Assembly: GCA_902761625.1 (NCBI GenBank)
Contig: CACWLH010000023.1
Coordinates: 1 to 39,125 of the forward strand
From: an uncultured Erysipelotrichaceae bacterium
GTDB taxonomy: Bacteria > Bacillota_I > Bacilli_A > Erysipelotrichales > Erysipelotrichaceae
Direction of reading: 5' to 3'
Length of the DNA: 39,125 nucleotides
Below are positions 11,775 through 16,811 of this stretch, piece after piece. The notes beneath the pieces were generated by a model. That model saw nothing but the letters and a program-made list of their open reading frames with translations, ran no database searches and was not told the origin of the DNA. The position numbers and the translations under genes were made by a program. Numbering within the stretch: the stretch's first letter is position 1; every line of letters begins with the position of its first letter.

Positions 11775-13001
11775 TTACTGTGCCGCCTCGAGCAGCTTCT
11801 GATCAATTCTGAGCAGCACATCCAGATAATACCTGTCCTCTTCAGCGGTCAGCTGTGTCTCATCAATCGCATCGAGCGCTTCCATCGCATCTTCGTACTT
11901 TGCCAGGAAGTCATAGTATTTCACCATCGTTTCCATGCTCATGGAGGTCTCATCCACACTCTTCATGAATTCCACATATTCATCAAAGAATGCCTCATAT
12001 GCGTCCATGCTCGCCTTGAATTCCGGCCGGATTCCGGACGCGGCTGTTTCCGCTGTCGGTTCAGGAGTCGGCTCCGGAGTCGGTTCAGGAGTCGGCTCCG
12101 GGGTTGGTTCCGGAGTTGGTTCAACCGTAGGCTCAGGGGTAGGCTCCAAAGTGGACTCAGGGGTTGGTGAAGGTGTCACCGCCGCCATCGGTTCTTCATT
12201 TTTCTCTGCGTCCGGTTTTTTCTTCGGTCTTGCAAAAACGGCAAGCAGCAGCACGGCAGCCACGCCCGCAATGATCATTGTCTTTCTGCGTTTGCGGTTT
12301 CTTTCCGCCAGCATCTGCTTTTCAGCGCCGGTTCCGGCCGCTTCAACCAGACGGCAGGCACGTTCTTTTTCTTCCAGTGCGTATTGGGCATTGTTGATGG
12401 CGGTGAAGTCAGCTTCGGCTTCTCTTAAGCGGGTCTTGGCAAAATCAAGATTTGTCTGTGCGCTCTGCACCGCATCCTCGGCGTTTCTGCCCGCGTTGTT
12501 GATCTCATCGGCGAACTGTCTGGTCTTTGTTTCCTCATCCGGTTTTGTCTCAGCGGTGAAATCACCGTCATCGCATCTCACATGAAGATAGTGTTTGCGG
12601 TGATCTTTTTCTTCTGATTCAATGACCTGATTGCGTTTGACGCCGCCAACGACCGCACCCAGCGATCCGGCCACGGCACCGCCGATCAGCGCACCGGGCA
12701 AAGAGATTCCGTTGGTTGATTTCGATGTGATTGTCGAGGTGATTTCTCCGGAAGTGATCACTTCCGCAAATGTGTTCTCATTGAGCACATAGGATCTGCC
12801 GTTATATTCAAGATGGTCAAGATACCGTTTGATGCCAGCGTATTCCTGCTTTGCTTTGGAGATATGATCCTCGCATGCCTTCACATTCTTCTGCAGCTGT
12901 TTCAGATCTTTCTGACGCTGCTTTTCCGCCATGTTCAGAACCTTCTTCGCTTCCTTTACTTCCTTTGCGGCTTCGTCCATCCGTTTGATATAATCTGTCA
13001 T
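11775..13001 (-). CDS. Coiled-coil membrane protein with glycine zipper and PTPEP stalk
   Basis: 408 residues with AGGAGG seven nt before the ATG. Order: coiled coil (1-60), a beta-rich region, a Gly-rich hydrophobic stretch LPGALIGGAVAGSLGAVVGG (101-120) resembling a glycine zipper, a second coiled coil (170-235), a basic stop RNRKRRK and one membrane span (about 241-257). After it come a Pro/Glu/Thr repeat stalk (277-317) and an acidic helical C-terminal domain (323-408: MDAYEAFFDEYVEFMKS). That last domain resembles DUF6591-type domains of other Bacillota. Topology is probably inside N-terminus and outside C-terminus. It is first in the operon with the 64-residue protein, merR and VOC, which suggests an envelope stress or sensing role, as inference. 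Confidence 0.8.
   Translation of the reverse strand: MTDYIKRMDEAAKEVKEAKKVLNMAEKQRQKDLKQLQKNVKACEDHISKAKQEYAGIKRYLDHLEYNGRSYVLNENTFAEVITSGEITSTITSKSTNGISLPGALIGGAVAGSLGAVVGGVKRNQVIESEEKDHRKHYLHVRCDDGDFTAETKPDEETKTRQFADEINNAGRNAEDAVQSAQTNLDFAKTRLREAEADFTAINNAQYALEEKERACRLVEAAGTGAEKQMLAERNRKRRKTMIIAGVAAVLLLAVFARPKKKPDAEKNEEPMAAVTPSPTPESTLEPTPEPTVEPTPEPTPEPTPEPTPEPTPEPTAETAASGIRPEFKASMDAYEAFFDEYVEFMKSVDETSMSMETMVKYYDFLAKYEDAMEALDAIDETQLTAEEDRYYLDVLLRIDQKLLEAAQ
12055..12168 (-). repeat. Tandem 12-bp repeat encoding PTPEP
   Basis: About nine imperfect 12-bp units inside the 408-residue gene, each coding a Pro-Thr-Pro-Glu or similar tetrapeptide. Units vary at third codon positions. Coding, in frame, and a likely site of length variation between strains. 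Confidence 0.85.
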
Positions 13002-14039: not shown

Positions 14040-14579
14040 ATGGGGTTTTATGATTACGCTGTCATAGACAGAAAAGGCAATGAAGTTCCGATGAAGAATT
14101 TCGAAGGCAAAGTCGTTCTGGTCGTCAATACCGCCACCGGCTGCGGCTTCACACCTCACTACGCGCCGATCGAGGAAATGTTTGAGAAGTATCATGATCA
14201 GGGATTCGAGGTACTCGATATTCCCTGCAACCAGTTCGGTCACCAGACACCCGGCACCGATGAGGAAATCACCGAATTCTGCACAATGAATTACAAGACA
14301 CAGTTTGCGCAGATGCATAAATCCGATGTCAACGGTGAAAACGAACTGCCGCTGTATACCTTCCTCAAGAGCCAGAAAGGTTTCGAAGGCTTCACAGGCG
14401 ACAAGGCTCCGTTCATGGATCAGCACCTGGCCAAGATTGACCCCGACTTCAGAAACAACCCGACCATCAAGTGGAATTTCACAAAGTTCGTCGTTGACCG
14501 CAAAGGCAATGTCGTCGCACGTTTTGAGCCGACCGCTGAGATGAGCGAGGTTGAGGCCTGCGTCGCTTCCCTGCTCTGA
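14040..14579 (+). CDS. Glutathione peroxidase family protein
   Basis: 179 residues with AGGAGG seven nt before ATG 14040. The thioredoxin-fold domain has the peroxidatic cysteine C35 in NTATGCGFTPHY, Q65 in IPCNQFG, and a tryptophan in IKWNFTKF: the Cys-Gln-Trp triad of the family. It is the cysteine, not selenocysteine, form. It reduces hydroperoxides, and bacterial members usually take electrons from thioredoxin rather than glutathione. No signal peptide, so cytosolic. Biased codon use suggests good expression. An oxidative-stress gene fits an anaerobe coping with traces of oxygen, next to the DJ-1 family gene. Confidence 0.93.
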   Translation: MGFYDYAVIDRKGNEVPMKNFEGKVVLVVNTATGCGFTPHYAPIEEMFEKYHDQGFEVLDIPCNQFGHQTPGTDEEITEFCTMNYKTQFAQMHKSDVNGENELPLYTFLKSQKGFEGFTGDKAPFMDQHLAKIDPDFRNNPTIKWNFTKFVVDRKGNVVARFEPTAEMSEVEACVASLL

Positions 14580-14692: not shown

Positions 14693-15289
14693 ATGAATAT
14701 GAGTGAAAAAAGAGCAGCGGTTTTACTGGCGGACGGATTTGAGGAAGGCGAATCCCTGTTTGTCATTGACATTCTCAGAAGAGCTTCCATCGGATGCGAT
14801 TCCGTATCCATCGATCAGGAAATGGTGCGCGGGGGACATGATATTTATGTGAAGGCAGACCGGATTATTTCAAAGGAAATCTATGATGATTATGATATGG
14901 TTGTCATTCCCGGCGGAATGCCTGGCGCGGCCAATCTCAGAGATTGTGAAGCGGTCATTGAATGGGTGAGAAAATTCAATGAAGAAAAGAAATATGTGGC
15001 AGCGATCTGTGCTGGCCCCATGGTGCTGAAACAGGCGGGCATCAGCGCGGGCAGAACCCTGACCTCCTATCCGGCAGATAAATACCGTGACATGTTTGCG
15101 GATGCGCAGTATATCGATGACAATGCAAAAATGGAACAGATGGTTGTGACAGACGGAAACCTGATCACTTCCAGAGGTCCTGCAACCACGTTCCCCTTCG
15201 CCTACAAACTGGTTGAAGTATTGGGCGGCAATGCCGATGCATTAAAAAACGGAATGCTGTACAACGCACTCATTGACAGCTTCCGTTAA
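14693..15289 (+). CDS. DJ-1/PfpI family protein
   Basis: 198 residues. The family hallmarks are a conserved acid near E17 (ADGFEEGE) and a nucleophilic cysteine C106 in the elbow AAICAGPM, preceded by VVIPGGMPGA. These define the DJ-1/ThiJ/PfpI superfamily, whose bacterial members act as stress chaperones, deglycases or glyoxalases; the exact activity cannot be read. Either of two ATGs (14693, 14699) may be used; AAGGA is six nt before the first. It is a single-gene unit with its own promoter and a strong terminator overlapping the end of folD. Confidence 0.88.
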   Translation: MNMSEKRAAVLLADGFEEGESLFVIDILRRASIGCDSVSIDQEMVRGGHDIYVKADRIISKEIYDDYDMVVIPGGMPGAANLRDCEAVIEWVRKFNEEKKYVAAICAGPMVLKQAGISAGRTLTSYPADKYRDMFADAQYIDDNAKMEQMVVTDGNLITSRGPATTFPFAYKLVEVLGGNADALKNGMLYNALIDSFR

Positions 15290-15305: not shown

Positions 15306-15330
15306 GAAGACCTTCGGGTCTTCTTTTTTT
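15306..15330 (+). terminator. Rho-independent terminator after the DJ-1 gene
   Basis: Perfect 7-bp stem GAAGACC/GGTCTTC with a TTCG tetraloop and seven to eight Ts. It runs into the folD stop codon on the other strand. Confidence 0.9.
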
Positions 15331-16189
15331 ATTCGATGCCGGCGGCACGTTTGGCGGCTGTGACAACATTGGTGACCAGCACGCTGGTTGTGACAGAGCC
15401 GACTCCGCCAGGCACCGGCGTGATCATGGAAACAAGCGGTTCCACCTCATCAAATTTCACATCGCCGGTGATCTTCTGCTTTGCCTCACTCCACGAGATG
15501 CCCACATCCGCAACGATCTGGCCTTCTCTGAAATATTCCCTGCCGAACTGTTCAGGCTGTCCTGCCGCCAAAACGACGATATCCGCATTGCGTGTTTTGG
15601 AAGGAATATCCACGGTTCTGGTATGGCAGACGGTCACGGTCGCATTGCGGTTCATCAGCAATAATGCCAGCGGTTTGCCGACGACCAGGCTTCTGCCAAC
15701 CACGGTGACATTCTTGCCGGTTAAATCGATGCCGTAATAATCAAACATCTCAATCACAGCCTGGGCGGTGCATGGCGCAAAACCCTTGGGGGTGTTGGTG
15801 AAAACACCTGCCAGAGAGCCGTCCGTGCAGCCGTCGAGATCCTTTTCATAAGCCACCGCGACTCTTGCCCTTTCACGGTCAAGATGGCGGGGAACCGGAC
15901 GGAACATGAGAATGCCGTGAATGGATTCATCCGCATTGGCCTCATCCACCGCTTTGTAGAAATCCTCTTTGGAAACATCCCCGGGCAGGATGATCCGCTT
16001 CACCTGAACACCGGTGCTTTCGCAGCGCTTGAGGGCGCCTCTTTCATAGGAAAGATCCGATTCATTTTCACCCACCCGGATAATTCCCAGAGTCGGTGTG
16101 ATGTTATGGGCCTTAAGCCGCTCCACCTCATTGCGCACTTTTGCGCTTAAGGCATCGGCGACCGGTTTTCCTTTGAGAAGTTCAGCCAT
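15329..16189 (-). CDS. folD: FolD-family methylene-THF dehydrogenase, cyclohydrolase residues replaced
   Basis: 286 residues, normal length. The NADP-binding half is intact (VVGRSLVVGKPLALLL, CHTRT, and a PVPGGVGSVTT end). In the catalytic half Y48 (SYERGALKRC) and D119 (KDLDG) are kept. However, the lysine expected four residues after the tyrosine (K54 in E. coli, K56 in human) is A52, and the active-site glutamine of GILVQLP is F96 in GILMFRP. That lysine is known to be needed for cyclohydrolase activity. The protein is therefore likely a dehydrogenase only, converting 5,10-methylene- to methenyl-THF. It overlaps fchA by 8 nt, with GGAGG upstream of its own ATG, so the missing step is supplied by its neighbour. 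Confidence 0.92.
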   Translation of the reverse strand: MAELLKGKPVADALSAKVRNEVERLKAHNITPTLGIIRVGENESDLSYERGALKRCESTGVQVKRIILPGDVSKEDFYKAVDEANADESIHGILMFRPVPRHLDRERARVAVAYEKDLDGCTDGSLAGVFTNTPKGFAPCTAQAVIEMFDYYGIDLTGKNVTVVGRSLVVGKPLALLLMNRNATVTVCHTRTVDIPSKTRNADIVVLAAGQPEQFGREYFREGQIVADVGISWSEAKQKITGDVKFDEVEPLVSMITPVPGGVGSVTTSVLVTNVVTAAKRAAGIE

Positions 16190-16811
16190 TGGTCAGCCTC
16201 CTGACAATATTGTCATATACGATTAATGCGCGCTTTGCATAATCATCCAGCATATCCTTTGCTTGCTTTGCATAAGCGTCCGCATATTCTCTGTCTTTCA
16301 TCAGTCTTGTATTGACGATGACATTCATATAAGCCCCATACATGGCACCATGCGCCAGCATGACCGATGTCGCCGCATCCGAGATGGCAAGTTTGGAACC
16401 GATGTCCTGAAGTCTTTCATCCAGCTCCACCACTCTTGCGCAGTATTTCAGGATCTGACACGGCGGTTCGGCGGCCACTCTCAGACACTGTTCCATAAGT
16501 TCCGCGTATCCTTCGGTCTCTTTGGGCAGCGAGTAGGCTTTTGCCAGGGGTTCAAATGCTTCGGCATCTCTTGCGATGCAGGCGAGCAGCTCTTTTCTCA
16601 GGCTGTCAGCCTCTTCGCGGATGGCGCATAATTCATCGGTATATTCGAGAAACTTCTTCTTGCCGATGGTGAGGTTGGTCACCATCGCCGCAAGACTTGC
16701 GGCAAGCGAGCCGCATAAAGCGCTGACGCCGCCTCCGCCGGGAACGGGTTCCTTCGAAGCTGACGCAGCCGTGAACTGATCAATTGTAAGATTGTCGAAC
16801 TGACGGGACAT
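16182..16811 (-). CDS. fchA: Methenyl-THF cyclohydrolase / cyclodeaminase family
   Basis: 209 residues, all-helical, of the formiminotransferase-cyclodeaminase C-terminal family. It opens with LTIDQFTAASASKEPVPGGG, a hallmark of the family, then GGVSALCGSLAASLAAMV, and ends with a long helical bundle. The stand-alone form in clostridia (FchA) hydrolyses 5,10-methenyl-THF to 10-formyl-THF. No histidine-degradation genes are nearby, so cyclohydrolase is preferred over formimino-THF cyclodeaminase. It has a TAGGAGG site and overlaps folD, with which it should form the C1-interconversion pair. No folate riboswitch is visible in the 78 nt upstream. Confidence 0.87.
   Translation of the reverse strand: MSRQFDNLTIDQFTAASASKEPVPGGGGVSALCGSLAASLAAMVTNLTIGKKKFLEYTDELCAIREEADSLRKELLACIARDAEAFEPLAKAYSLPKETEGYAELMEQCLRVAAEPPCQILKYCARVVELDERLQDIGSKLAISDAATSVMLAHGAMYGAYMNVIVNTRLMKDREYADAYAKQAKDMLDDYAKRALIVYDNIVRRLTNG

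Follow-up and report, generated by a model that had tools for sequence, protein, structure and literature searches.

The adjacent genes folD and fchA of the window, the whole 39,125-nucleotide stretch of gut-bacterial DNA analyzed here, very probably divide between them the work of one ordinary enzyme, their activities being predicted from residues, co-inheritance and published mutants. FolD would be confined to the step between methylene-THF and methenyl-THF, in either direction, and FchA would carry out the step between methenyl-THF and 10-formyl-THF, again in either direction. With Fhs as the third enzyme, formate, 10-formyl-THF and methylene-THF would be connected. In the course of evolution, a cyclohydrolase would have been acquired before the FolD site decayed or was rebuilt. 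The order of the genes, both on the minus strand, is fchA (16811 to 16182), then folD (16189 to 15329). The features are located as follows.

15329..16189, minus strand: folD, 286 aa, predicted methylene-THF dehydrogenase without cyclohydrolase, Pfam PF00763 and PF02882
16182..16811, minus strand: fchA, 209 aa, predicted methenyl-THF cyclohydrolase, a stand-alone member of the cyclodeaminase/cyclohydrolase family, Pfam FTCD_C
16182..16189, minus strand: 8 nt shared by the end of fchA and the beginning of folD, from ORF coordinates
16034..16036, minus strand: A52 codon (Lys54 in E. coli FolD), from the alignment
15902..15904, minus strand: F96 codon (Gln98 in E. coli FolD), from the alignment
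15386..15388, minus strand: T268 codon (Val268 in E. coli FolD), co-varying with Lys loss
16046..16048, minus strand: conserved Y48 codon (Tyr50 in E. coli), Y throughout all groups aligned
15833..15835, minus strand: conserved D119 codon, active-site Asp, from the alignment

The FolD protein passed the cutoffs of both Pfam models (PF00763, 103.8 bits with a cutoff of 32.8; PF02882, 186.4 bits with a cutoff of 27) and scored below those of the NCBIfam FolD models (at best 252 versus 421 and 250 versus 392). Solved FolDs aligned with it across its full length, and its fold is therefore certain. The two domains, the Tyr, the Asp and the nucleotide site are common to this protein and to bifunctional FolD, as found in E. 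coli and in the human MTHFD1 domain. However, the bifunctional enzymes have a Lys and a Gln in the cyclohydrolase site where the window FolD has A52 and F96, and their loop PGGVGPMT[IV] is replaced by PGGVGSVTT. An earlier reading of the sequence alone (the sequence-only reading) had proposed both substitutions, and a gap-free alignment bore them out, numbering included: the segment Y48-E-R-G-A52-L-K-R-C aligned without gaps with YVxxK, and GILM-F96-R-PVP matched GILV-Q-L-PLP. A misalignment in which the Lys was merely shifted by two residues was rejected, because K54 of the window protein corresponds to the second Lys of KRK in this gap-free alignment. Chance could also be excluded as the source of A52/F96, since K and Q were present in 167/167 Lys-type FolDs of the alignment, whereas the 174 sequences of the window FolD's clade mostly had A, I, V or L at the Lys site and F, L or M at the Gln site.

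The residues of the dehydrogenase were conserved (Y48, D119, G165-R166-S167, G210, D228 and T267), and the Tyr, the Asp and the NADP site are thus intact, as had been claimed. Position 48 was Y in every sequence of all groups, and position 119 was D in 172 of the 174 clade relatives and in every Lys-type FolD. The earlier account of the active site was right about A52 and F96, but it missed the further substitutions S45D, V49E, L97R and L38R, as well as the replacement of PMT(I/V) by SVTT at positions 265 to 268. The new charged residues R38, D45, E49 and R97 form a conserved set in the clade of FolDs with A and F at the two sites (the A/F clade).

Published enzyme data bear on these positions. 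In E. coli FolD, the K54N variant had about 19% dehydrogenase activity and undetectable cyclohydrolase activity, and the Q98H variant had about 8% and about 1%, respectively; Y50, K54, P265 and V268 line one pocket, which is the carolacton site (PMC5688156). Modeling of human MTHFD2 indicated that the corresponding Lys holds the pterin oxygen and contacts the Gln (PMC9173628). From these mutants and this modeling, an enzyme with A52/F96 is expected to have lost the cyclohydrolase. The statement that Lys mutants lose the cyclohydrolase and keep the dehydrogenase held for its first part, whereas the dehydrogenase is kept only in part. Since much of the dehydrogenase activity is also missing from the E. 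coli mutants, compensation elsewhere must be assumed; an A52/F96 FolD is expected to retain the dehydrogenase only in part, and its other changes may compensate.

The co-occurrence of Lys-less FolD and FTCD_C was then examined in other genomes. A scan of genome contigs yielded 80 relatives of the window FolD, 98 to 46% identical to it. The relatives were found in Erysipelotrichaceae, Lachnospiraceae, Oscillospiraceae, Coriobacteriia/Eggerthellaceae, Spirochaetia and Deltaproteobacteria/Syntrophobacteraceae, the nearest named one being that of Erysipelotrichaceae bacterium NK3D112 (FolD 98% identical). Nearly all were A/F-like, and an FTCD_C gene lay directly upstream in most. Among the whole-searched genomes with the window FolD form, which were picked by FolD similarity, are not independent and include all eight without FTCD_C in the fetched flank, FTCD_C was present in 50/50, each with a single FolD. 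The sequence-only reading had named as evidence against itself the existence of many genomes that carry this form of FolD but lack fchA; such genomes were looked for and numbered 0/50. The baseline was much lower, with FTCD_C in 25/195 genomes of the phylum sample and in 59/195 of the family sample. Co-variation of both residues with fchA, suggested as a check by the same reading, was strongly positive: in the family, the Lys was lost in 53/58 FTCD_C-positive genomes versus 1/59 FTCD_C-negative ones (Fisher p = 3e-26, uncorrected for kinship), and in the window's genus it was lost in 4/4 genomes with FchA versus 0/18 without (p = 1.4e-4). The sole Lys-less genome of the family without FTCD_C (G273) is a draft, 89% complete and in 430 contigs, and its genus-mates have FTCD_C. 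A sample of 118 Clostridia genomes was drawn regardless of FolD type, and 90 FolDs were read in it, including nearly all low-scoring ones; FTCD_C, scored by adjacency only, adjoined 0/54 FolDs keeping K and Q and 19/36 Lys-less FolDs. An independent-pairs test on a tree without outgroups had too few pairs for significance.

A matched loss and replacement within one operon had been proposed. This interpretation is supported, with the qualification that adjacency is frequent and not required: FchA lay away from folD in the genomes of eight relatives. Adjacency to fchA as the decisive factor was dropped, because the Lys was lost also where FchA sits elsewhere. The 8-nt overlap of the two genes, on the other hand, was exactly as described, the ORF ends being at 16189 and 16182. 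The identical overlap was found in 39/145 gene pairs of relatives, and being frequent among them, it is inherited and not peculiar to the host genome.

Three genomes had two fchA-folD cassettes each (G313, L201/L202; G345, L073/L204; G366, L069/L205), and another (G173) had two Lys-less FolDs (L304 and L315). In family f13, the FolDs L302, L305, L308 and L309 had radically altered active sites, with I or Q for the Lys, Thr for the Gln and the PMT motif lost, in genomes with a divergent FTCD_C.

It is conceivable that the rebuilt site (D45, E49, A52, F96, R97 and T268) still performs the cyclohydrolase step through a different arrangement, with FchA as a helper or in another job; we consider this improbable. 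The conserved charged residues R38, D45, E49 and R97 of the A/F clade do argue for a site that was rebuilt and not merely decayed. However, lineages that are Lys-less and lack the charged set also carry FTCD_C, the co-occurrence with FTCD_C in every whole-searched genome would be left unexplained, and the cyclohydrolase of the E. coli K54N enzyme was undetectable (PMC5688156).

A division of work between FolD and FchA also agrees with the gene content of the host genome (2.93 Mb, 150 contigs, 94% complete), which combines a Lys-less FolD and FTCD_C and is in this respect a split system. Its only PF00763 match was the window FolD, and its single FTCD_C copy was the window FchA; a second FolD or FTCD_C elsewhere was ruled out, as none was found in the genome searches. 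There was one Fhs gene, on a different contig from fchA-folD, and no formiminotransferase was found in the search of the host genome. FchA is therefore the only candidate cyclohydrolase. The FchA protein, a stand-alone domain of 209 aa, scored 184.9 bits with Pfam FTCD_C, and its closest solved relative was the methenyl-THF cyclohydrolase 7vg4 (E=6e-34). With the NCBI FchA model NF045657 it reached 153.8 bits, under the curated cutoff of 275. In a tree, the FchA proteins accompanying A/F FolDs grouped together with a support of 99, and most hut copies fell outside this clade.

That FchA could be the formimino-THF cyclodeaminase of histidine degradation, lying beside folD by chance, is most improbable. 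Its Pfam family does serve that role and includes the FTCD_C of the hut formiminotransferase-cyclodeaminase. The surroundings of FTCD_C were read in 18 genomes that keep the Lys and are FTCD_C positive, and in 18/18 it lay beside hutI or a formiminotransferase gene. A histidine-degradation FTCD_C thus coexists with an intact FolD, and FTCD_C alone is no predictor of Lys loss. However, the search of the host genome showed no formiminotransferase, and a hut role for the window FchA was dropped for this reason; moreover, FchA of the window kind has a clade of its own, separate from most hut copies, and adjoins folD across several phyla. Equally hard to credit is a dispensable cyclohydrolase, with Fhs making 10-formyl-THF, the step partly spontaneous and the Lys drifting away with no replacement: Fhs is present in the host genome, and E. 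coli K54N mutants survive with very slow growth, for which spontaneous turnover is held responsible (PMC5688156), but Lys-less FolD without FTCD_C should then be frequent, and the whole-searched genomes included a single case, which is a draft.

To place the loss of the Lys, a tree was built that included FolDs from Clostridia, Proteobacteria, Bacteroidota, Actinomycetota and Archaea, the two trait columns being excluded. Lys-less FolDs occupied no fewer than three separate positions: the large A/F group, which includes the window FolD; a Clostridia group that has Gln in place of the Lys and retains the active-site Gln; and a group of Erysipelotrichaceae in which the Lys is replaced by I, M, T, F or L, again with the active-site Gln retained. 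A fourth case, L180, belongs to the window's own genus and has Arg for the Lys, while its sister L177 keeps the Lys in a genome without FTCD_C; the L180 genome carries an FchA of the clade accompanying A/F FolDs, located away from folD. The tree required three Lys-state changes, of which the starred branches alone forced two; it replaced an earlier tree without outgroups that had two changes. That the change was a loss and not a gain rests on the presence of the Lys in the enzymes of E. coli, humans and archaea.

Position 268 followed the same division. It was I, V or R in 166/166 Lys-type FolDs having a residue there and T, N or S in 167/174 and 16/16 Lys-less FolDs of two groups (183/190 in total), and the rule held in all four Lys-less cases, L180 included. 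P265 and M266 likewise shifted in Lys-less FolDs. The Lys-less FolDs of Erysipelotrichaceae that kept the Gln were accompanied by a hut-clade FTCD_C, and a histidine enzyme was probably recruited as the replacement in this lineage. Sometimes an extra copy lay beside tgt: in four family genomes with a Lys-less FolD (L225, L227, L228 and L245), FTCD_C adjoined this tRNA-guanine transglycosylase gene, and in several of them it was a second copy besides the hut-linked one.

We give about even chances to a broader account, in which the cyclohydrolase site of FolD disappeared on three or more occasions, and in every case only in the presence of an FTCD_C protein able to assume the reaction. One Erysipelotrichaceae lineage would have replaced it by the histidine-degradation cyclodeaminase and not by the FchA cassette, and the Lys-less lineages would have converged on Thr/Asn268, which would help the dehydrogenase to work without the Lys.

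The split between FolD and FchA is already known from clostridia and acetogens. The FolD of Clostridium perfringens is reportedly a monofunctional dehydrogenase, FolD and FchA both being needed to replace E. coli FolD. Like the host genome, C. perfringens has separate FolD and FchA plus Fhs. Its separate proteins are the subject of Aluri et al. (2016, Microbiology 162:145), according to the citation in PMC7219735. In the methyl branch of acetogens (fhs-fchA-folD clusters, e.g., in C. autoethanogenum), FchA and FolD are also separate and co-encoded, but there they lie inside Wood-Ljungdahl clusters, whereas the window pair stands alone with Fhs on another contig. Clostridia FolDs fitting or nearly fitting NF010769 (L362, L365 and L358) have Gln for the Lys, keep the Gln and differ in lineage from that of the window. 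The features that look new are the sequence signature, the fact that it arose repeatedly and a family-wide misannotation as "bifunctional". In a literature search reaching few subscription papers, neither the residue signature nor its several origins nor the change at position 268 turned up, which is weak evidence.

FolDs of split systems are labeled "bifunctional" in records and papers; a Lys-less FolD of Collinsella aerofaciens (L416, NZ_OY725717.1), for example, is so recorded beside a "cyclodeaminase/cyclohydrolase family protein", likely a misannotation. A signature of two or three residues would separate dehydrogenase-only from bifunctional FolD in genomes. In Lys-less organisms, fchA should be needed for the exchange of methenyl-THF and 10-formyl-THF. 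Because E. coli K54N is insensitive to carolacton (PMC5688156), Lys-less FolDs should not be bound by this compound or by other FolD inhibitors that use the Lys as their anchor. The repeated loss of the Lys is also a clean natural experiment, in which one active site sheds one of two reactions.

By eye, no obvious folate genes adjoin the fchA-folD pair. The genes at 14040-14579 and 14693-15289 (plus strand), convergent with folD, appeared glutathione peroxidase-like and DJ-1/PfpI-like, respectively. Farther away, an ORF at 11775-13001 (minus strand) carries a PTPEPTPE repeat tract, and an ORF with VGSGVGSG at 11935-12585 on the plus strand is probably its shadow.
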